Below, in pieces: positions 16,667-30,210 of a stretch of DNA of 64,000 nucleotides; position 1 is the stretch's first letter; every line of letters begins with the position of its first letter. The stretch is from contig JARKIF010000003.1 in the NCBI GenBank assembly GCA_029378245.1, positions 558,001 through 622,000 of the forward strand. Direction: 5' to 3'. The DNA comes from Roridomyces roridus (taxonomy: Eukaryota > Basidiomycota > Agaricomycetes > Agaricales > Mycenaceae). Made by a program: the position numbers and the translations under genes. The notes under the pieces were generated by a model. That model was not told the DNA's origin and made no database searches. It saw only the letters and a program-made list of their open reading frames with translations.

Positions 16667-19224
16667 ATGCTAATGTCGAGCGACAACGAGAAGAGTGCGC
16701 CGCTGCCAGAAATCGGCACCCCGGAGCGCATGCTTGCCGAACGCAAGTTGGTGCGCAGGCTGGACCGTCGACTTCTGCCGACGCTCGTCTTGATATATGT
16801 CATGAACAACATCGACGTGAGTCTCCACTTGTATATGGATTCAAATACGAGTCGTGATTCTTAGAGGACCGGGATCACTACTGCTCGATTGCGGGGCTTG
16901 GAGCAGGACTTGCGGCTTTCAGTCGGTCGGACTCGTTTCAAAGACTTGACTGACTCATTCCAGACCTCCAATATAACGTAATTTTATCGGCGTTGTATAT
17001 TCTCTACTCGCCCGCACAAATCCCCTCCAACATGGCGAGTTCCTCTCCGCTATTATGATCAGTTCTGACAGCCGTTCAGATCCTCAATCGAATTACTCGG
17101 TATGTGGTGCGGATTTTTTCATGAGTCGGCGTCACATTCGACATAGCCCGTCGTGGTACATCGGCTGCTGTGTGGTGGCATGGGGTCTTGTGAGCTTGCT
17201 CACCTCTGTCAGTGCCTTCGATAATATCCATTCCCCACCAAATCTCATCGAGAATGGCAGCAAACTCGAGGCTACAGCGGGCTGGTGGCATGCCGTATTT
17301 TCCTAGGGTTACCTGAGGTGTGTTTGCGCCCGGACAACAAGCATATTATAAACCTTGGCTGAAGAATCCAACAGGCTGCATTTTATCCTGGATGTAAGCA
17401 GCTCACCACAAATACATACTCGCATATCGACACCACACAGCAACGTACCTGTTGTCGCGATGGTATACGAAAAAGGCAGGGATGTACCCATCCTGGCAAC
17501 TCGCGGTCTGAACGTTCACAGGAGCTGGCACTTCGCTGTGCAATATTGTACGCCGGTTTCCTTCTGGCCAATGCATTTGGCGCTGTAGGTGTGCCGATGG
17601 CGGGGACGTATTCCAATTTTGACCCCTTCACCCTGCAAGTTAATGGCCGCTGGAATCTTGTCGAACATGGAAGGAAGACTGGGGATTCGGGCCTGGAGAT
17701 GGTATGTGTGTGCGTCATTGACGATATGTGTGACAAAAGCTGGGATCGTACTAGGCTGTTCATAATCGAGGTCAGCGAGCTCTACGTGGACTAGAACTGT
17801 CTCTGAAGTTTCAACAGGGCTCTATCACGATTGCCCTTGGGGTGTTTACCATGTTCGTTTGGCTGCATCTCAGAAATGCTCGTGCTCATGGAAATTGATT
17901 GATTAGATGGGCGTTACCGGACTACGTGAGTCGGGTCCGATCAACTCAAGCAGGAAGAATACCTATCGGGGCTTCTAGCCAAATAACACATCATGGATCG
18001 TCGGAAACGAGCGTCGACTTGCACAGGTCCGGCTCGCCGAGGATGCAGGTGAGGCCGACCAAGATAACGCCGAGGATACGTACGTGTGCTTCCTCGTTTA
18101 CCTTGCCAAGTTGAATTATGGTGTCAGCCCTCTACGCGGTCTCAAGCTAGCTGCTCTGGACCCGCTGGTGTGGGCGTTTGCAATCATGAACATGACTCAG
18201 ATCTTCGGCCTGAGCTTCGTTATTTTCTGTGAGTTTGGCGACGTTTGCCATAGCATAAACCGGGCATAAATTCATCTGCTTCGGATTTCCAGTCCCGACC
18301 CTGACTCGCTCCCTTGGCTTTTCGATTACAATTAGCTTGGTGCTTGTAGCGTACGTACTTGCCTACCGCCTACTTCTTCTCAATGTTTACCTGTCCTCAC
18401 TGGCAGCCCCCCGTGGCTCTTCGCCTCAGCGATATGCTGTCTCAACTCCTGGCACGCAGGTCCGTCCTCCTCCTATTCTTTTAACTCCATGTGGCTTATG
18501 CATCAGCTCAGATGCAACTCGAGAACGATACTTTCACATAGCCGGAACCTGGTGGGTAGTCAGTCTCGGGCTCATTATTTCCATCTGCACCAGGAACCTC
18601 GGCGCTCGGTACTTGTCCATGTTTTTCATGGTATTCGGCTTTGCCGGTGGGTGGTTTTGATTTCTTGAATATTCCGAGGTGCGCTGAATTGAATAGGATT
18701 TTCGCTGACGGCTGTATGGGTGTCGAATGTCATCCCTCGGCCACCATCGTAAGTTCACCTTCTCTCGTGCATGCACACACCTCAATTGAGATTGCACTAC
18801 TAGCAAAAGGGCCGCAGCCATCGCTATCGTTAACGCTGTGGGAAATATCGGGAACATGTACGTGCAATCTGTCGTACAGCCATTCCTGGCTAAAAGAACT
18901 CCAGAATTGGTTCATACTCGTGGAAATCCGAGTGGGGTCCCCTCTACCACCAATCTATGATCATCTCCCTCTGCGCGCTGGTTCTCAGCTCGGTCATTGC
19001 TCTCGGTTCGTCTGCTTGTGGTGTCGTGTCGTTTACGTGTAAACATGCGCACCTCTGTAGGGATCCGCCAACATCTCGTCTTGAGAAACAAACGGCTTGA
19101 TGAGGACGAGCAGGTTGCGGTGAATGGTGCTGATGAGGGGCGTGTCAGAGAGGCGGCGGTGTTGGAGGGGATCACCTTCGAACAGGCGATGGAGAAGCGG
19201 AAGGGGTTCAGGTATCTGCATTGA
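16667..19224 (+). CDS. MFS transporter, allantoate/nicotinate (ACS) family, copy A
   Basis: This is a plasma-membrane anion:cation symporter of the Dal5/Tna1 type; the substrate cannot be named from sequence. The start is ATG 16667 or 16673. N-terminus: TPERMLAERKLVRRLDRRLL, then the family block MNNID|RTGITTARLRGLEQDL (the D-R-x-x-I motif). Later exons read PSWYIGCCVVAWGLVSLL, GLVACRIFLGLPE, TYLLSRWYTKKELALR, ALMAAGILSNMEGRLGIRAW, IWALPDYPNNTSWIVG, PLRGLKLAALDPLVWAF and the tail AVLEGITFEQAMEKRKGF. About 15 introns of 45-60 nt can be removed with every join in frame, including a GC-AG intron at 17035-17079 and another GC donor after YTKK. No disabling change was found. It pairs with copy B in intron layout. 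Confidence 0.82.
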
Positions 19225-19589
19225 TTAGGGAAACATATACTACGTGGGACAATTCTTTTCATTAATGTCACGAATCCCGGGTGCATAAGATTAAGATTCA
19301 GATAAGACCCAAGTCTCTCGCGGCGTATGGCCACTCCAAGTGGCGACCCGACCCCACAGAGCTCTCTACCAACCGGCCAGAGAGTGAGTAAGATACATGT
19401 ACCACAAATCGGAAATAAACCTCCATTTTCCTGTCCCCATCCTCTGTCTCCGACCCATCCTGAAGTGCAAGCAAATGTATTAATATTTCTCGATGCCTTG
19501 GAACCGTGGGAGTGTGGTGGACTATTTGCACATCGGAGTTTGATCGAATCACCTTTTGCTTCCGAACCACCTCCTCGTCTCACTTGCTC
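19225..19589. other. Intergenic, with a dispersed repeat
   Basis: No gene is supported. About 19488-19575 (GATGCCTTGGAACCGTGGGA ... GGAGTTTGATCG ... CTTTTGCTTCCG) is similar to 60990-61070, roughly 70% by eye. Both stretches read DALE-x-WE-x-GG in one plus frame, so this may be the relic of an unrecognised coding sequence. Confidence 0.5.
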
Positions 19590-20699
19590 ACTTTACGCCT
19601 CACACGTGCCGCTCGATATGGCAATTTGATGGGGGCAGTGAAAGGCTGTGCTTAATCGGCGGGAAAGCTATCAATTGATCACATCACGGCACACGTCGAA
19701 TATTCGCCAAGTCAAATCAAAGTCGAATTGTGCTCGAGTACACTAATTAGAGTAGTAGCTAGGTATTAGGAGGATGGGGGTGTGTAATGTAGTTAGTTTG
19801 GAATGAATTCGGAGGGAGATATGCGGGATATTGTGCGGGATAAGGAGAATACGGGTATTGATAGGGTATGGGTAGTGGAAAGCAAACGCCGGCTGTGGAG
19901 GCAGCGACAAGGGTGGGCCGGGCACGGTGGTGGACGGTCCCGGCAGCGGCGTGGTCGATGGTCCTACGGCAGATGCTGTTGATGGTGCCGCCCGGGGCTT
20001 AGCCGATCCCTTCGCCTTGGGCCCGCTGGTGACGCCAGCTCCATACGAAGGGTCTCCGGCGGGGGGGCGTCGCGTTTTGACCATGGGCATGACATGCGTC
20101 ATCCGCTCGGAGCGCGCGGGGTGGGAGGATCGAAAGGAGATGGAGATGACGAGAAGGAGCGGACGAGCCAGTCGTCAATGTTGGGGTGGGAGGCGGGCAG
20201 TCAGGAATGAGGGATCGACAACGACGGGCGCGCACGGCGTGGAGGCGACGGCAGCTAGACGAACCGCTGGGTCGAGAGGGATGAGACGGGGCTTGGGGAG
20301 CAGCGGGTGTCTCGCCGTGGGAGACAGATAGTGGAATCCATCGAAAATACACCTTCAAATGCTTCTCAGGACTGTCACACTGCAAGCCATTCAGATTCGT
20401 TAGAGAGCAGGACCATCGTCACGCACCACTACAAAGTGTTTCCTTTGTTTTTTCCTTTACCACATCTTTGGAGGGGAAGCACCGTCTTGCATATCCTACA
20501 TTTGTAGGCTGGGACGGGCGGCATCGTCGTGGAGAGAGGAGCGAGATGAAGGGAGGAGGGAAGCGCGACGTGATGTTTGTCAACAAACAGCCAACGGCCA
20601 GGAACGGCACAGATGACCGCCGCAAGGTCTGCCGAACGCACAGCCTTTCACTGCCCCCATCAAATTGCCATATCGAGCGGCACGTGTGAGGCGTAAAGT
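19590..20699. repeat. 61-bp perfect inverted repeat enclosing a small gene
   Basis: Bases 19590-19650 (ACTTTACGCCTCACACGTGC...) are the exact reverse complement of 20639-20699, with about 990 bp between. Perfect arms imply recent origin or gene conversion. They are inside the transporter array, between copies A and B. I see no clear target-site duplication, so I cannot call it a transposon. Confidence 0.85.
19999..20524 (-). CDS. Small hypothetical protein, CRIC motif and proline-rich tail
   Basis: The ATG at 20524 gives MPPVPAYKCRICKTVLPLQR, followed by a basic GKGKNKGNT segment. A possible intron 20432-20372 (GTAGTG...GACAG) joins to PEKHLKVYFRWIPLS and then a Ser/Pro/Arg-rich stretch to a stop at 19999. 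A further proline-rich open frame continues to 19743 and may belong to the gene through another intron. Only one Cys-x-x-Cys pair is present, so a zinc finger is not established. It is the only gene between the perfect inverted repeats. The family is unrecognised. Confidence 0.4.
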
Positions 20700-20989
20700 C
20701 AGGAGTGCCTCGTCTCCTTTTCAAGTTCAACGGTTCTTTCCTACTTTACAGACACCATATGCCCTCGGGTGATCTCGTGCGTCCGATTTCGTGCGTTGTT
20801 TAACTCCCCCCGTATCCTCACCTGCTCGATGCATGTTAGTCGGACGCAAGTCGAACCAGAACTTGGCGTTTCGAATGGAGAACATGGAGCAGACGAAGAA
20901 GGCGATCAAGATATAGGGCAGAGACTGGGTCCATTACTTAGAAGGCGGGACTCTAGCGTTATCTACGCGCAAAAGTTGTCTTGACATAC

Positions 20990-21498
20990 TTATCTGGGCA
21001 GGGTTCTTCCGAGCTCCCTCAAAGCCGCGTACAACCGAGACTCTAGCGGGCTATGTAATCGCGAGCGGAGCATCGAAACCAACGTTCAGACCGACTGGAT
21101 GGAAAAAAGAAGAAGACATCGCTTGGTGACTCTCGGATGAAGGAAGAAGAAGAGGACGGCTCACTACAGTCTACTTGCCGGCCTATTCTTCCGCTTCTCC
21201 GAGTCGCGATAAACGCCTTGGAACTTCTCGGGCGGCGCTGGTATGAGCATGAAATGGTGTTAAAAGGAAGGCGCCTCTTCCCCCCTTGACTCCCTTCTGT
21301 GTCCACGCAAATGTCGAGAAGAGTATCCTGGTGCCAGGAATCGGGCTACCGATTCCCGTTAGAGCTAGACGGCTCGTGCTCTCGCTTCTCAAGATAAGCT
21401 CCCTGGAACGCCCCGGGCGGCGCTGGATCGACTCGGAGCATGTGAGATGGTGCTAAAAGGCAAGCAGCTCGCCCCCCCTTCAACTCCCTCCTCCCTTC
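20990..21498 (+). repeat. Duplicated promoter and aborted first exon before copy B
   Basis: The promoter block seen before copy A occurs twice here. The first instance (about 21195-21335) includes a shortened start (ATGTCGAGAAGAGTATCC) that matches the copy A first exon and then stops aligning. The second (about 21360-21498) leads into the real first exon of copy B. The word GGGCGGCGCTGG followed by TGnTnnAAAGG marks each instance. Confidence 0.65.
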
Positions 21499-23946
21499 AT
21501 GCCAATGTCCAGCGAGAAAGAGAAGAGTGTCCCACTGCCAGAAATCGGCACCCCGGAGCGCATGCTCGCCGAACGCAAATTGGTGTGCAGGCTGGACCGT
21601 CAACTCCTGCCGACACTGGTCTTGATAAATATGATGAACAACATCGACGTGAATCTCCTTGTATATTATGGATTCAAATACGAGTCATGATTCTTAGAGA
21701 TCCGGGATCACTGCGGCTCGATTGCGGGGGTTGGAACAGGACTTGCGACTTTCAGGTCGGTCGGACTCGTTTCAAAGACTTGACTGACTCATTCCAGACC
21801 TCCAATACAACGTAATTCTATCGGCGTTGTATATTCTCTTCTGCCCAGCCCAACTTCCTTCGAATATCGCGAGTTCTTCTCCGCCATTAGTATGCTCAGT
21901 TCTGACAGCCGTGCAGATCCTCAATCGAACTACGCGGTATGGCATGCGAGTTTTCTCGTTAGTCGGCCTCACATTAATATTCGAGATAGTCCGTCGTGGT
22001 ACATCGGCTGTTGTGTCATGGCATGCTTGATCACCTCTGTCAGTGCATTCCATAATATCCGCTCCCCCAAATCTGATCGAGGATGGCAGCAAACTCGGGG
22101 TTACAGCGGGATGGTGGCATGCCGTATTTTCCTGGGATTACCTGAGGTGTGTTTGCGCTCGCATAACAGCATTATTATACACCTTGGCTAAGGGGTCCAA
22201 CAGGCTGCGTTCTATCCTGGATGTAAGCAGCTAACCACAAAATCATACTCTCATATCGAACACCACACAGCCGCCTACCTATTGTCGCGATGGTATACGA
22301 AAAAGGCAATGATGCACTCAGGCTTATCCTGAAGACTCGCGGTCTGAACGTGTACAGGAGCTGGCACTTCGCTCTGGGATTCTGTACGCCGGTTACATTC
22401 TGGCCAATGCATTCGGCGCTGTAGGTGTCCCGGTGGCGGTGATGGATTCCAATTTTGACCCCGAGTCAGTATGGAGGGAATACTGGGAATTCGAGCCTGG
22501 AGATGGTATGTTCACTTCCTGATTAACTATGCGTGACACTGGCATCGTAGGCTGTTCATCATCCAGGTCAACAATCTTTATGTTGACTGGAACGGTCTCT
22601 GAAGTTTCAAAAGGGTTCTATCACGATTACCTTTGGGATGCTTGCTATGTTTGTCTAGCTGCATCTCCGGAGTGCTCTTGCTCAGATGAAATTTTTAGAT
22701 GGGTCTTACCGGACTATGTGAGTCGGGTCCGCAACTCAAGCAGGAAGAATACACACCGCAGCATGTAGCCAAATAACACATCATGGATCGTCGGAAACGA
22801 GCGTCGACTTGCACAGGTCCGACTCGCCGAAGATGCAGGCGAGGCTGACCAAGATAACGCCGAGGATACGTATGTGTGCTTCCTCGTTTTCCTTGTCAAG
22901 TTGAATTATGGTGTCAGTCCTCTCCGTGGTCTCAAGCTAGCCGCTCTGGACCCGTTGGTGTGGGCGTTGACGTTTATGAACATCACTCAGTACCTCGGAC
23001 TGAGTTTCGTCATTTTTTGTGAGTTTGGCAGTCTTTCGGCGATTAACTCATGTGTTCGGATTTCCAGTCCCCACCCTGACTCGCTCTCTTGGCTTTTCAA
23101 CCACCATTAGCTTGGTGCTTGCCGCGTAAGTACTCGCCCACCGCTCACTTCCTTCCAAGGTTTACAAATCCTTGTTGCAATCAAGACCCCCGTGGCTTGT
23201 CGCCTCAGTCATATGCTGTCTCAACGCCTGGCACGCAGGTCCGTCCCCTCCCAGTCTTTGATTAAATTTCATGTTGGCACTCATGCATCAACTCAGATGC
23301 GACTCGAGAAAGATACTTTCACATGGCTGGAACCTGGTGGGTAGTCATTCTCGGGTTCATTATTTCCATCGCCACCAAGAACCTCGCCGCTCGGTACTTG
23401 TCCATGTTCTTTATGGTATTTGGCTTTGCTGGCGGGTGGTTTTGATTTTTTGATTTATGTGGTGCGCTGAGTTGAATAGGATTTTCGCTGACGGTTGTGT
23501 GGGTGTCGAATCTCATCCTCGACCGCCGTCGTAAGTTTACCTCCTCTCGTGCATGCACCCCTGTATTCAGACTCCACCACTAGCAAAAGAGCCGCAGCCA
23601 TCGCTATCGTAAACGGTATGGGAAATCTCGGGACCATGTAATAGGTGGCATCCGTGTCGTACAGAACCAGTCGTGGCTGAAAAAAACTCCAGAATGGGCT
23701 CGTACTCGTGGAAATCCGAGTGGTCTCTTTGTGGCGTTGTGTTAAGTACGTGAGCGAGGGTACTTACGTCAACCGGCGGTAGGGATCCGCCAACATCTCG
23801 TCTGGAGAAACAAACGGCTTGAAGAGGACGAACAGGTTGCGGTGCAGGGTGCTGATGAGGAACGTGTTAGAGAGGCGGCGCTGTTGGAGGGTATCACCTT
23901 CGAACAGGCGATGGAGAAGAGGAAGGGATTCAGATATTTGTATTGA
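21499..23946 (+). pseudogene. MFS transporter, ACS family, degraded copy B
   Basis: It is alignable with copy A from exon 1 (TPERMLAERKLVCRLDRQLL) to the terminal exon (EQAMEKRKGFRYLY). Three deletions relative to A were seen. Twelve bases are missing from the membrane segment near 22022 (VAWGLVSLL becomes MACLI). About 30 bases encoding MAAGILSNM are lost around 22465, leaving an exon that no longer joins in frame. About 75 bases are missing after 23724 (ESEWS...), removing the last membrane helix. Exon 1 also has Arg-to-Cys and Tyr-to-Asn changes in otherwise constant positions. The other introns keep usable borders. It is most likely a non-functional relic, though transcription is possible. 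Confidence 0.75.
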
Positions 23947-24530
23947 TTTTTCGGACTTTGTACGGCACTGAACTGCAGACATAATACTTATCAGTGACGG
24001 ATGAGATGATCAAGTTGTACTGTCAAGCGAGTTGCCGGAACTCTGCCGATTTCTGGCTTGCTCTCAACTGTCACTTGATGGTCTTGAACATTCTCCACTC
24101 CTGGGTTACTAGGGACCAAGCCCGCGTGCCCCGCGTCGGAGGACCAACACATCCAATGCCAGCGAATCCAGCGTTTGCGAAAAAGAACACAAACAGCGCA
24201 AGTTGACACTCCGCCCGAATGTAGAATTTAGAAAGAAGTAGGGAGGTGCCATCTTAGCGCCGCACCGGGCTCATCTGAATCCCTCTCTTTCTCAGGTTAT
24301 TCCCTTGCGGCTTGCGGAGACATAAGTCACCCGATGAGCTTGCTGTCCGACGAGGATTCGAATGCATCCTCTAGGTCTAGTAGCTATTAGATGTGTCAGG
24401 GCGCGTTATTTCGGGCGACTTCGGGTCTGGTCCACCGCTCATGATCACCAGGCCCCAGACGATTGGCGCAATCGACGTTTACTAAAGAGGCCAACAAGCT
24501 CTCGTTAGAACCTCACACGTTGCACCCCCC
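23947..24530. other. Spacer between transporter copies B and C
   Basis: From about 24240 on, the spacer resembles 27360-27540 before copy D: CGCACCGGGC, GATGAGCTTGCTGTCCGACG, TCTAGGTCTAG and GGGCGACTTCGGG words occur in the same order. Copies C and D therefore share a duplicated promoter distinct from that of A and B. No gene is supported in the spacer. Confidence 0.5.
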
Positions 24531-27009
24531 ATGTCCAGCGAGAAATCGGAGACCGACTCCAAGGCAGAGCTGGAGGCACCGACTCCCCAAGTCGGTACTC
24601 CAGAGCGCATCCTCGCAGAGCGGCGGCTCGTACGCAAGCTGGATCGCCGACTCCTCCCTACCGTATTCTTGGTCTATGTCATGAATCTCATCGACGTGCG
24701 TTGCTCGCTCTTTTTCGACTCCCAGGCTCAGTGTAACAGAGGAATGGAATCACCACGGCTCGGTTGCAGGGCTTGGAACAGGATTTGAAGTTGTCAGGCA
24801 AGTCCAGTCGCAGTCAACTTGACGACGATATACTTATACTTTACAGACCTCCAGTACAATACAATTCTTTCGGTTTTGTTCGCGACGTACTGCACGGCGC
24901 AGGTTCCCTCGAACATGGCAAGTTCTCCTTCCTGCTTGGATAATATAATAATATCCACTCACTACAGATCCTCAATCGAGTTACTCGGCCGTCGTGGTAC
25001 ATAGGCGCCTGCGTCATCGCGTGGGGTCTGGTCAGCTTGCTTACCGGTGTGAGTCCTATCTTGACTCCCTCCGGGTCCTTCCTAAGCCTCCACAGGAAAC
25101 TCACAACTACGGTGGGATGGTGGCATGCCGTGTCTTCCTCGGTTTGCCAGAGGTGTGTTTCATCCGCCATGTGAGGACTGCAAGTAACCTTTCACAATGC
25201 GTAGTCTGCATTTTATGCAGGAGGTCAGTCGATAGACTCATTCAATCCAAGACCACCGTTCAACATCGTATCACAGTGGTCTACCTCCTATCGCGCTGGT
25301 ACACAAAGAAGGTGTGTATATCAAGTTCAAGTCGGACTGTGACTTATCGACTTCAATATCATTCTAGGAGCTCGCGCTCCGCTCAGCGGTATTGTCCACT
25401 GGTCTGCTTTCCTCTAATGCATTCGGGGCAGTAAGTAACAATCGGGTAGTCCCCGGTCGTGTTTGATCTTCATCTGCAGCTAATGGCCGCTGGAATCCTG
25501 TCGAATATGGAGGGAAAACTGGGCATTAGCGCCTGGCGATGGTATGTACCCGCTGTTCAACAGATTCAGATTCGACAACATTGTGACGTGTGAAAGGTTG
25601 TTTTTCATCGAGGTGCGTACACTGCGTTGATCAAATCCATGGACGATTCCAACCACTCAACTGCTCACAGGGTTCAATCACGATCGTTGTGGGGATTTTC
25701 AGCTTGTGAGTATATGTATTACTTTCTCCAGAACTCTTCTCATTGGATTAAGATGGGCGTTACCGGACTACGTGAGTAGGATTCTCCATGGAATAATCCA
25801 AACTCACTCTCCTGCAGCCCAACAATACGTCATGGATCGTCGGCGATGAGCGTCGACTCGCGCAGGTCAGATTGGCCGAAGACGCCGGCGAGGCAGACCA
25901 GGATAACGTTGAGGACACGTACGTAGTACCGTCTTTCAATCAAGTTGAAGTGTATATTCTCAATATTTACAGTCCGCTTCGTGGCCTCAAGCTAGCCGTG
26001 CAAGACCCGCTGGTATTGACCTTTGCGGTGATGAATACTGCTCAGCTACTCGGACTCAGTTTCACCAATTTTTGTAAGTAAGCTCTCGCGAGTTGTCCGT
26101 GTATCTGGGGTTCACATTAGATCTAGTCCCTACCTTAACGCGAACTCTGGGGTTCTCGACTACCATCAGCCTGTTACTTGCTGCGTACGCCCTATCTTGA
26201 ATGCTGCTTCGATTTCACCTGAGTGATTTCCTTGAAGCCCCCCGTGGATCATCTCCGCAGGCATCTGTTGCCTCAACGCATGGCATGCAGATAGAACCGG
26301 AGAGCGATATTTCCACTTGGCTGGAACGTGGTGGGTCGTCATCCTCGGGTACATCATCGCTCTGTGCACTGGCAAGGCCATCGGTCCGCGGTATTTTTCA
26401 ATGTTTTGTATGGCTATGGGACATGCTGGTGAGTGTCAATTTTCTACTTGCTGTAAGGAGCGATGAGATACCATCTTATAGGGTATACAATGACCGGTGT
26501 TTGGGTGGCAAATGTGATTCCGCGACCGCCATCGTAGGTATTGTTCTTCACTTAAAACCAAGTTAAACACGGTGAATGCCACAGGAAACGGGCTGCTGCC
26601 ATCGGCATCGTCCTAGGTGTCGGGAATCTTGGAAACCTGTCAGTGCAAATGAGACTTGGATGCACTGTATGATCTGAAACCAACAGAATGGGTTCATATA
26701 CCTGGAAATCGGAGTGGGGACCATTGTATCATCAATCTATGATCATATCCCTCTGTGCGATGGTGTTCAGCTCGATCTTGGCTTTCGGTGTGTCTAGTGC
26801 TTGGCTGCTCAAGAATTCATGCTGACCTTAGAGCTTCTTATCCAGGCATCCGTCAACATCTTGTTCAGAAAAACCGACAGCTGGATGAGGACGAGCGGGT
26901 TGTGATGCGGGGCACGGACGAAGCGCGTGTAAAAGAGGCGGCGGTGTTGGAGGGTATCACCTTCGAACAGGCGATGGAGAAGAGAAAGGGGTTCAGATAT
27001 TTGTATTAA
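24531..27009 (+). CDS. MFS transporter, ACS family, copy C
   Basis: ATG 24531 opens MSSEKSETDSKAELEAPTPQ, then TPERILAERRLVRKLDRRLL and NLID|RNGITTARLQGLEQDL. Later blocks are RVTRPSWYIGACVIAWGLVS, NYGGMVACRVFLGLPE, VYLLSRWYTKK, MAAGILSNMEGKLGISAW, WALPDYPNNTSWIVG, PTLTRTLGFSTTISLLLAA and EQAMEKRKGFRYLY. All joins keep the frame and no stop interrupts it. Two introns present in copy A are cleanly absent: after ACTCG (24987/24988) and after TGGCATGCAG (26290/26291). GC-AG introns occur after KLS (GCAAGT, near 24798) and after SNM (GCAAGT, near 24917). A functional symporter of unknown substrate is likely. Confidence 0.82.
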
Positions 27010-27683
27010 TTTGTTGCTGGATGACTCGGATGCCGTGATTTGATTACCTGGTTTGCTCTCAACTCTCAACCTGATGATTCAACTTGATCTGCTCGAAATG
27101 AACATCGTGGCCTCCTGGACTCTCCCAATTATTGCGCTCCGCACCTCTTGGGTTGCTTGTGGACCAAGCCAATGTTATCCCCGTCGGCACACGGACACAT
27201 TCAATCCGGCCAGTGTGCTCACTGCTCCCCCGCTTGGCAGATCAAACGTAAAAGAAAGCGATTGCGGGCAAAGAATAGAGAAAAAAATCCGTCCGACTCG
27301 GAGATCTCTAGAAAGCAGAATGAATGGCGTCGAAGACGAGGACTGAATTGCAATTGTCAAGTGACAGCAAGGAACCTTTTTAACACCGCACTGGGCGCTT
27401 CCCTGCGCTTCCTCTTTCGCAGCCTGGGAAGACCCGACGAGCTCGCAGGCTACTTGCTGTCCGACGAAGATCTGAATGCCTCCGAGTCTTCTAGATTTAG
27501 GCTAATGTAGGAACTTCCATCACGGCGACTTTCTGGTGGCTTGGGCGCTCTGGCGACTTCGGGTTTGGGCCCACCACTCATGACCTCTGGATGTTCGGCG
27601 CAGTCGGGTTCCATGTATGATGAGGTTTACTAAAGAAGCCGCCAACAAGTGGAAGTCGAAGCCTCACCTTGCGCCCTACGGCC
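27010..27683. other. Spacer between copies C and D
   Basis: The right half (27360-27680) matches the copy C promoter region. The left half shows only short frames. No separate gene is supported. Confidence 0.45.
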
Positions 27684-30210
27684 ATGTCCAGCGAGAAAGC
27701 GGAGATCGACTACAAGACAGAGCTGGGTGAGCTGGAGGCGTTTCCTGGAGTTGGACCCTCGATTCCTGCAGTTGGTAACCCGGAGCGCATCCTCGCAGAG
27801 AGAAAGCTCGTACGCAAGTTGGATCGTCGACTACTCCCGACGATATTCTTGGTCTACATTATGAATTACATCGACGTACGTGCCAGACTCACTTTCTTTC
27901 GCCTTCTCAATGACATTGGAACAACAGAGAAATGGAATCACTACGGCTCGACTGCAGGGTTTGGAGCAGGATTTGAAGCTGTCTGGCAAGTCGAGTCGCA
28001 GTCAACTTGACGAAGATATACTTATATTTTGCAGACCTCCAGTATAATGTAATTCTTTCGGTGGTTTTCGCGACGTATTGTCCGTTCCAAATACCTTCGA
28101 ATCTTGTCTGTCGCTCTCTTGAAACCAAGTCTCTCATTTTCTGACAGCTTCAAGATTCTCAACCATGTCAATCGGTAACAATCAAGACCCTGACTCGTCA
28201 AAAGAGCTAACAGACAACAGGCCGTCGTTGTACATAGGCGTCTGCGTCATGGCGTGGGGTCTCATCAGCCTGTTCACCAGTGTGAGTCCTATCTCGCACC
28301 CCGGTCCTTAGTACTGAGCCTAGTATTCGGAAACCAAAAAAAGCAAACTCAGAATTACGGTGGGATCGTGGCGTGCCGTATCTTCCTCGGTCTGCCAGAG
28401 GTGTGTTCACTGTTCGGTGCTCAATCTGTGTGCCTTACTTACCTTGTTGCATAGGCTGCATTCTATCCAGGAGCGGTGTACCTCCTATCGCGCTGGTATA
28501 CGAAGAAGGTACCTGTCCGCATCAAATTCCAGTCCTCAGTTGTGGATTGAATACATGTCGTTCTAGGAGCTCGCTCTTCGCTCAGCTGCATTGTACGCCG
28601 GCCTGCTTCTATCTAATGCATTTGGAGCGGTAAGTACATACCAATAGTCCCAACCTGCACGTGGTCAATCTTTCCACAGCTAATGGCCGCCGGAATCCTG
28701 GCGAATATGGAGGGAAAACGGGGTATTCGAGCCTGGCGATGGTACGTATGCGGGAGTCGAGACGAGAATCAATTTGATTTACCATGAAAGGTTGTTCATC
28801 ATCGAGGTGGGTATGAATCCATGGCCGATTCCAACCACTCGCTCAACTCCGCTTGCAGGGTTCCATCACGATTGTATTGGGGATGTTCACCATGTTCGTA
28901 TCTGTCTTGCTTTCTCGGGATTCCTTACTAAATTATTGTGGATGGGCGTTGCCCAACTACGTGAGTAGCATTCAATTCTTCATGGAATCTAAACTCACTC
29001 TGGATTTTGGTGCAGCCCAACAACACGTCATGGATCGTCGGCAGCGAGCGTCGGCTCGCGCAAGTCAGATTGGCTGAAGACGCGGGTGAGGCGGACCAGG
29101 ATAACGTCGAGGATACGTACGTATCGTCGTTCAATCAAATTGAAGTACATATATTCTCAACATCGACAGTCCGCTTCGTGGCCTCAAGCTAGCCGTACAA
29201 GACCCCCTGGTGTTGACTTTTGCCCTGATGAACGCGGCTCAGCTGCTCGGACTCAGTTTCGCTAATTTTTGTAAGTGAACTTTCAAAGCGAGTTGCTCGT
29301 TTGATGTTCACCGTGATTGTTTGCCAGTCCCAACGCTAACGCGGACGCTGGGCTTCTCGACTACAATCAGCCTGTTACTCGCCGCGTACGTCCGACTACT
29401 TTGAATTCCGCTGCTCTTTCATCTTAATTCTCAAGCCCCCCGTGGATCCTGTCCGGGCTCATATGTTGCCTCAACGCATGGCATGCAGATAAGACAGAAG
29501 AGCGATTTTTCCATTTGGCTGGGACGTGGTGGATCGTCATCATCGGATACATTATTTCGCTGTGCACAAAGGAGATTGGGCCCCGGTATTTTTCGATGTT
29601 TTGTATGACTATGGGACATGCCGGTGGGTGTTCAATTCTTGCCTTCATTTGGGTGACTGATGCGGCTACTACCAATAGGATACGCGCTCACTGGTGCTTG
29701 GGTGGCAAACGTGATTCCGCGGCCGCCCTCGTATGTGTTTACATGTGCCTCAAAAGCGTGTTTATTTGACTGTGCTGCGTAGGAAGCGGGCTGCTGCCAT
29801 TGGTATCGTCATGGGTGTCGGGAATCTTGGAAACTTGTAAGTTCAAATGACACGATGACCTGTAAGTTTAAACTGTGTTTAGGATGGGTTCGTACACATG
29901 GAAATCGGAATGGGGACCATTGTATCACCAGTCCATGATCATATCCCTCTGTGCCTTGGTCCTCAGCTCGGTTTTGGCTCTTGGTTCGTGCATCCAGTGT
30001 TAATGGCTTGCTGGCTGGCCGTAGCTTAATTGCAACTTGAATACAGGCATCCGTCAACATCTTGTTCGCAAAAATAGACAGCTGGACGAGGACGAGCGGG
30101 TTGCGATGCGGGGCGCGGACGAAGGGCGTGTCAAGGAGGCGGCGGTGTTGGAGGGTATCACTTTTGAGCAGGCGATGGAGAAGAGGAAGGGGTTCAGATA
30201 TTTGTATTGA
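27684..30210 (+). CDS. MFS transporter, ACS family, copy D, with exonised intron
   Basis: ATG 27684 opens MSSEKAEIDYKTELGELEAF, then NPERILAERKLVRKLDRRLL and NYID|RNGITTARLQGLEQDL. Blocks equivalent to copy C continue to the terminal EQAMEKRKGFRYLY at 30210. Two features differ from its paralogues. The intron inside PGA/VYLLSRW is absent (28473/28474). The intron after GMFTM (28894-28941, 48 nt) has lost its acceptor: AG in copies A and C is GG here. The 48 nt read through in frame with no stop, adding FVSVLLSRDSLLNYCG just before WALPNY. If retained, this lengthens a loop or helix boundary in the middle of the transporter. Otherwise the gene is open. Confidence 0.8.
28894..28941 (+). other. 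Lost splice acceptor; 48-nt former intron now open
   Basis: The donor GTTCGT and a TACTAAA-like branch site (28927-28932) are kept, but the 3' end is TTGTGG where copies A and C have TTAG or TAAG. The length is a multiple of three and the frame is open, so retention is tolerated by the reading frame. Confidence 0.75.

Follow-up and report, generated by a model that had tools for sequence, protein, structure and literature searches.

How do neighbouring copies of one gene come to differ by the clean presence or absence of whole introns? The question is raised by a stretch of 64,000 nucleotides from the 90.8 Mb assembly of the fungus Roridomyces roridus (C223:558001-622000, here called the window), which carries four copies, A to D, of a predicted transporter gene that differ at three intron sites, designated X (site 105.2), Y (148.1) and Z (329.1). 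The initial annotation had treated these as a four-copy array, whereas a protein search of the genome revealed at least nine copies, A to I, spanning 106 kb on C223; the number is a lower bound because only the best candidates were scored in that search. The most valuable part of the locus is formed by the neighbouring copies of the same array, beyond the four in the window.

The comparison of the copies leads to a scheme of duplication, single deletions, conversion and an element-derived intron that we consider, as a whole, to be probable. The array would go back to a single ACS-like transporter gene, rich in introns (about 22), and duplications in the Roridomyces lineage would have brought the copy number to at least nine. 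Ancestral introns would have been deleted precisely, singly and, at some sites, repeatedly, probably by end-joining across short repeats at the splice junctions. In addition, ectopic gene conversion would exchange short tracts among the copies and carry introns along: a tract of about 140 nt with X from F to D, and one of about 320 nt with a further intron, 93.0, from H to I. Intron 93.0 itself would have arisen in the H lineage from a non-autonomous element of about 56 bp, the ends of which read GT...AG when they are flanked by G.

Intron states across the array

Besides the copies in the window (Table 1), the minus strand of C223 carries E and F at 482-488 kb and its plus strand carries G, H and I at 528-538 kb; E contains one frameshift and deletions. 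The paralogue L (C1:4352079-4354662) served as outgroup, and more distant relatives are found at other places in the genome. In a quick protein tree with 34 proteins from other species, A to I form a single clade (Shimodaira-Hasegawa-like approximate likelihood ratio test, SH-aLRT, 97), which indicates that the array duplications postdate the split from the sampled species. The copies had been described as highly similar in sequence, which holds within the pairs A-B and C-D (85% identity of coding bases) but not between A/B and C/D (71.6-73.6%).

On contig C32, from the second haplotype, A, B, C, D and I are found at 99.7-100% identity (A-D 99.7-99.9%), with the same intron states at X, Y and Z as on C223, and therefore the differences among these copies are differences between genes, not between alleles. 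No second-haplotype copy of E, F, G or H was found within the sequence searched. The second haplotype is shorter by about 13 kb in the interval that separates I from A (C32:7316-30474 versus C223:538234-574631).

X follows ACT-CG, Y follows GGA and Z follows GCA-G. The boundaries that the initial annotation had assigned to five introns (X, Y and Z in A, Y in C and X in D) were reproduced exactly by spliced alignment, and the absences it had reported, of X in C, of Y in D and of Z in both C and D, were found in both haplotypes, the exons joining cleanly with zero bases added or lost. Across the 23 intron sites compared, the outgroup L carries 19 introns (one of them hand-coded), including X, Y and Z, each at the same position and in the same phase. 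Since L has all three, the comparison indicates that their absences in the array are losses and not gains; the gain that had been offered as an alternative does not apply at these sites, but does apply at a fourth, 93.0, outside the window. The genome-wide matches of the Z intron of A are limited to itself and its allele.

Under a single origin of each intron, 17 losses at 11 sites are counted (16 if X in I and D is masked as imported), on a tree that keeps A to D together with a support of only 49/93. For X, the tree places one loss in C or in the C/D ancestor and another in the G/H ancestor. Y would have disappeared from D and, separately, from G, and Z from the C/D ancestor and, separately, from I; the loss of 294.2 would date to the A-D ancestor. 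Copy I has the fewest introns, seven having been lost outside its imported tract. The recent intron turnover proposed earlier is thus upheld by the single array clade and by the polarity that L provides, except that the contrast of C with D at X is confounded by conversion.

Tracts shared between copies and the source of intron 93.0

The tract in D that comprises the end of exon 3, intron 98.0, exon 4 and intron X is 89% identical to F (130/146 aligned columns), a copy that lies 98 kb away on the opposite strand. A genome search with this tract matched F at 91% over 115 nt (E 8.9e-40) and otherwise only D itself and its allele. In most sliding windows across the tract D and F are 80-98% identical, compared with 28-42% for D and C, and C is the closer copy again from 28220. 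The two introns in the tract are identical between D and F at 46/49 positions (98.0) and 40/46 positions (X), the median for all same-site intron pairs being 0.59. This pattern indicates that X of D was carried by ectopic gene conversion, probably from F, rather than inherited beside the sister copy C. D is the likelier recipient because its tract is unlike the corresponding sequence of its sister C and of A and B; there is no close sister of F with which the reverse direction could be tested. The sister C has no X, and in D the state of the C/D ancestor would have been overwritten by the tract, so that D is uninformative on whether that ancestor had X.

A second tract, of about 320 nt (C223:536190-536510), is shared by H and I with 88-100% identity and ends sharply in intron 125.0. 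The identity of the introns within it is 88% for 75.1, 93% for 93.0 and 100% for 98.0, and the exon-run test gave a z of 26 with a permutation P of 0.0005 (the lowest attainable value, without the factor of 36). Outside the tract, H groups with G (100/99), and the approximately unbiased (AU) test rejects an H+I clade with a P of 3.6e-7. The most likely explanation is that a conversion tract moved 93.0 from H to I. I is the likelier recipient, because its tract is similar to G, just as that of H is, and it was likely without 93.0 before, because this intron is found only in H and I. The 93.0 introns of the two copies depart from the element ends in identical ways, and therefore one insertion that was copied once is the simplest reading.

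Site 93.0 is empty in eight of the ten genes, including the outgroup L, and the intron found there in H and I belongs to a dispersed element family. A DNA search with 93.0 yielded 31 matches outside the array, of which one was weak (E 1.63) and the other 30 were fetched; three of the non-array copies share 50 nt with 93.0 without a difference (E 1.9e-18). When up to three mismatches were allowed, a 22-base pattern matched the genome 49 times and its reversed control not once. These 49 include H, I and the allele of I, so that 46 further pattern hits remain. Target duplications of 9-11 bp (six of them of 9 bp) flank 11 of the 27 non-array copies with two recognisable ends, two of these sharing one flank, while only 0.6% of 812 mismatched flank pairs showed such a repeat. 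The element ends are TAGTC...TTATA, so that a G flanking each end yields GT...AG, and the intron of H and the G-flanked form of the element align in 55/59 columns. Furthermore, the annotated protein of H (P0008) is identical to the H model from which 93.0 has been removed (511/511 residues). The identity of 93.0 with the element is evident, and this new intron would have originated by transposition of a non-autonomous mobile element. A reading-frame scan of 30 element copies gave no clear case of an intron in another gene, and a Pfam search of one candidate copy gave nothing above the cut-off. The element is not called an introner here; 93.0 is the sole insertion that is supported as an intron.

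Two further copies of the element were observed. A version of 117 bp (L076, C223:163743-163859) carries inverted copies of the first ~27 bp of the element at both ends, a layout suggesting terminal inverted repeats. Another copy (L069, C24:1504819-1505467) is flanked by a target duplication of 11 bp and embedded in an extended open reading stretch, and is a candidate for a second exonic insertion.

Conversion would not be needed if the sequence around X were an ancestral one retained by both D and F, and X is indeed ancestral, being present in L, E, F, A and B. Such common retention is nevertheless highly improbable: beyond the tract the introns of D and F are mostly near background (the highest identity is 0.72, at 375.1), intron 75.1 just upstream of it is 92% identical between D and C, two neighbouring introns and the exon between them switch partner together, and, among 120 fetched homologues, the motif VNRP is found within the first 260 residues only in the public proteins of D (P0002) and F (P0026). 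It is still harder to believe that 93.0 is an old intron, lost in the other copies, from which the dispersed copies were derived. Nothing beyond its presence in two copies speaks for such an origin, and it is opposed by the empty site in most of the genes including L, by the identity of 93.0 to three dispersed copies, and by the dispersed copies themselves, which have target duplications of their own and in some cases are longer elements. We thus retain conversion in the D-F tract and a mobile element as the putative source of 93.0.

Several points weigh against the scheme. The polarity of the losses rests on a single distant paralogue as outgroup, and splicing is predicted from models and public annotation. 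The exon-run test is not suited to a tract as short as that of D and F, and the pair D-F is not among the 14 best of 36 pairs. For residues 56-125, a grouping of G+H without I is not rejected (P 0.27) and the H+I branch of the tree is weak (73/63), and therefore the choice of H, not G, as the partner of I rests on intron identity. The 93.0 intron of H has no visible target duplication, the best repeat being one of 7 bp with one mismatch, below the threshold. In addition, the allele of H is absent from C32, so that H has no haplotype confirmation.

Mechanism of intron loss

The approximately 16 losses between very short exons offer a rare test of the model in which introns are removed by recombination with reverse-transcribed spliced mRNA (complementary DNA, cDNA), because at several sites an intron was retained only 7-20 nt from the loss, so that a template would have hardly any room. 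The exons in the array are tiny: the nearest retained intron is 7 nt from the loss at 294.2, 16 nt at 206.0, 20 nt at 105.2 and 19 nt at each of 148.1, 141.0 and 218.2. Overall, a retained intron is found within 7-54 coding nt on the nearer side in 17 of 19 cases of loss per copy and site, the two exceptions being both in I (375.1, at 106 nt from a retained intron, and 444.1, at 101 nt). Microhomology at the splice junctions averages 1.70 nt at lost sites and 0.62 nt at kept sites (11 versus 11; Mann-Whitney P 0.008, permutation P 0.005), in a one-sided test that was chosen after the data had been seen. The choice of this test, and site 294.2, which was lost without any repeat at its splice junctions, count against deletion by end-joining.

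The exact joins are also what the cDNA route would produce, and the two runs of neighbouring losses in I (206.0-218.2 and 329.1-375.1-392.2) would fit it as well. It is moreover the model favoured in Cryptococcus and fission yeast (PMC2395259, PMC3629103), at least in the parts of these two papers available to us, to which the same restriction applies below; the fission yeast study found direct repeats without a significant excess at losses, and for Cryptococcus it was proposed that meiotic recombination of a multi-loss allele made via cDNA could still yield isolated losses (PMC2395259). The array resembles both systems in its exact losses and in the repeated change in the same genes, but differs in that copy I, the copy tested, has no excess of adjacent losses (3 pairs versus a null mean of 2.5, P 0.49), and it differs from the fission yeast data (PMC3629103) in the enrichment of microhomology at lost sites. 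With this enrichment, an adjacency at chance level, and so little homology left for a cDNA on one side of many losses, the cDNA-mediated conversion put forward in the initial annotation is not favoured and appears unlikely. Deletion of single introns by end-joining is moderately favoured over it.

Gene models and the array among known systems

The encoded proteins are predicted transporters of the Major Facilitator Superfamily (MFS): the domain PF07690 was detected in copy C with an E of 6.7e-36 (124.4 bits, cut-off 33.4). The best NCBIfam model is TIGR00893 2A0114 (E 9.9e-47), which we take to represent the ACS (anion:cation symporter) family, TC 2.A.1.14. The scores of 159.7 bits for C and 165.1 bits for D do not reach the curated cut-off of 395, and therefore the copies are not curated ACS members, even if this model appears to be the closest. 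The nearest solved chains are those of VGLUT2 (E 4e-6).

Copies A to D were modelled by protein-guided spliced alignment to the genome, and their splice models rest on this alignment and on the public annotation. The model of C agrees with its public protein in 500/500 residues and that of D in 484/508, after two junctions in the D model had been corrected by comparison with the public protein. The sole difference in D is a stretch of 24 N-terminal residues (window 27684-27875) that is kept in the model and missing from the public protein, as if a stretch of exon had been turned into intron.

Table 1. Features of the transporter array (window positions, unless a contig is given)
Feature	Position	Strand or length	Basis or remark
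Copy A, ACS-like MFS transporter gene, 21 introns	16667..19224	+	Spliced alignment; model without stop or frameshift
Copy B, degraded (internal stop, frameshifts, deletion), 20 introns recognised	21505..23946	+	Spliced alignment
Copy C, 19 introns; without X, Z and 294.2	24531..27009	+	Spliced alignment; public protein P0001
Copy D, 19 introns including one GT..GG; without Y, Z and 294.2	27684..30210	+	Spliced alignment; public protein P0002
Intron X (site 105.2) in A	17100..17146	+	Spliced alignment
Intron X (site 105.2) in B	21937-21989	+	Spliced alignment
Intron X in D, within the tract common to F	28175..28220	+	40/46 identical to X of F
Intron Y (site 148.1) in A	17394..17440	+	Spliced alignment
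Intron Y in B	22223-22270	+	Spliced alignment
Intron Y in C	25224..25276	+	Spliced alignment
Intron Z (site 329.1) in A	18460..18511	+	Spliced alignment
Intron Z in B	23239-23296	+	Spliced alignment
F-like stretch of D attributed to gene conversion (exon 3 end, intron 98.0, exon 4, intron X)	28080..28220	+	Sliding identity, genome search
Intron 93.0 of H and I (L040, L041)	C223:531986-532042 and 536348-536404	57 nt	Copy of dispersed ~56-bp element

Some splice sites in the window are unusual. Intron 218.2 of D (28894-28941, plus strand) has the acceptor GG instead of AG, also in the C32 allele; it is removed in the public D protein and would, if unspliced, be read through in frame. GC-AG introns occur at the same sites in several copies, namely 98.0 in A, B, C and E (window positions 17035, 21869 and 24918), 75.1 in C and D (24798 and 27986) and 159.0 in A and B, and 375.1 is GC-AG in B. 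In intron 75.1 of A (16926-16963) the usual donor is short of one base, and a GT a few bases further on keeps the frame and adds one residue. One of the 20 intron calls in B (182.1) is doubtful. Between A and B, a perfect 60-bp inverted repeat (19592-19651 and 20638-20697) flanks about 1 kb that is possibly an inserted element.

The transfer of introns between paralogues is a recognised route, and a table in a 2012 review lists three unambiguous events, in Mycosphaerella, Aspergillus and Chironomus (PMC3443670; here and for the introner papers cited below, comparisons concern the portions of text available). As in those events, recombination would have carried an intron together with its flanks into another paralogue: near-identical introns are found in D and F (98.0, X) and in H and I (75.1, 93.0, 98.0), with background identity elsewhere. 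The array differs from the reviewed transfers in that 93.0 has a traceable mobile-element source and that the host is a basidiomycete; the transfer of X from F to D is also unlike them, as it would concern an ancestral intron and an inverted orientation over 98 kb.

Introners have been described from many lineages; the fungal ones named belong to Pezizomycotina and other ascomycetes (PMC9860276, PMC4457414), and the text of PMC9860276 contains no match for 'basidiomycot' or 'mushroom'. The element found here resembles them as a short non-autonomous element with target duplications that would give rise to a GT-AG intron, and it is dispersed, near-identical among copies and present in at least one copy as a predicted intron, since the public H protein removes 93.0. 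It differs from them in that one insertion, that in H copied to I, is supported as a predicted intron. As a tentative and rather doubtful extension, the element might be a true introner in a terrestrial mushroom, with some copies spliced in other genes and gene families spreading such introns by conversion; a target duplication that starts and ends in G would make TAGTC...TTATA a ready GT-AG intron. If true, transposition followed by conversion would multiply introns faster than transposition alone.

It should be noted that a comparison of introns between sister paralogues can mislead if conversion tracts carry introns, as X in D illustrates. Both mechanisms, the derivation of an intron from a transposable element and its movement by conversion, are already known, and their combination in a basidiomycete is an unusually clean case. 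The origin and the spread of new introns are still debated, and in this array the events would follow an order that can be read within a single gene family, with an element first turning into an intron that conversion then copies to a paralogue.

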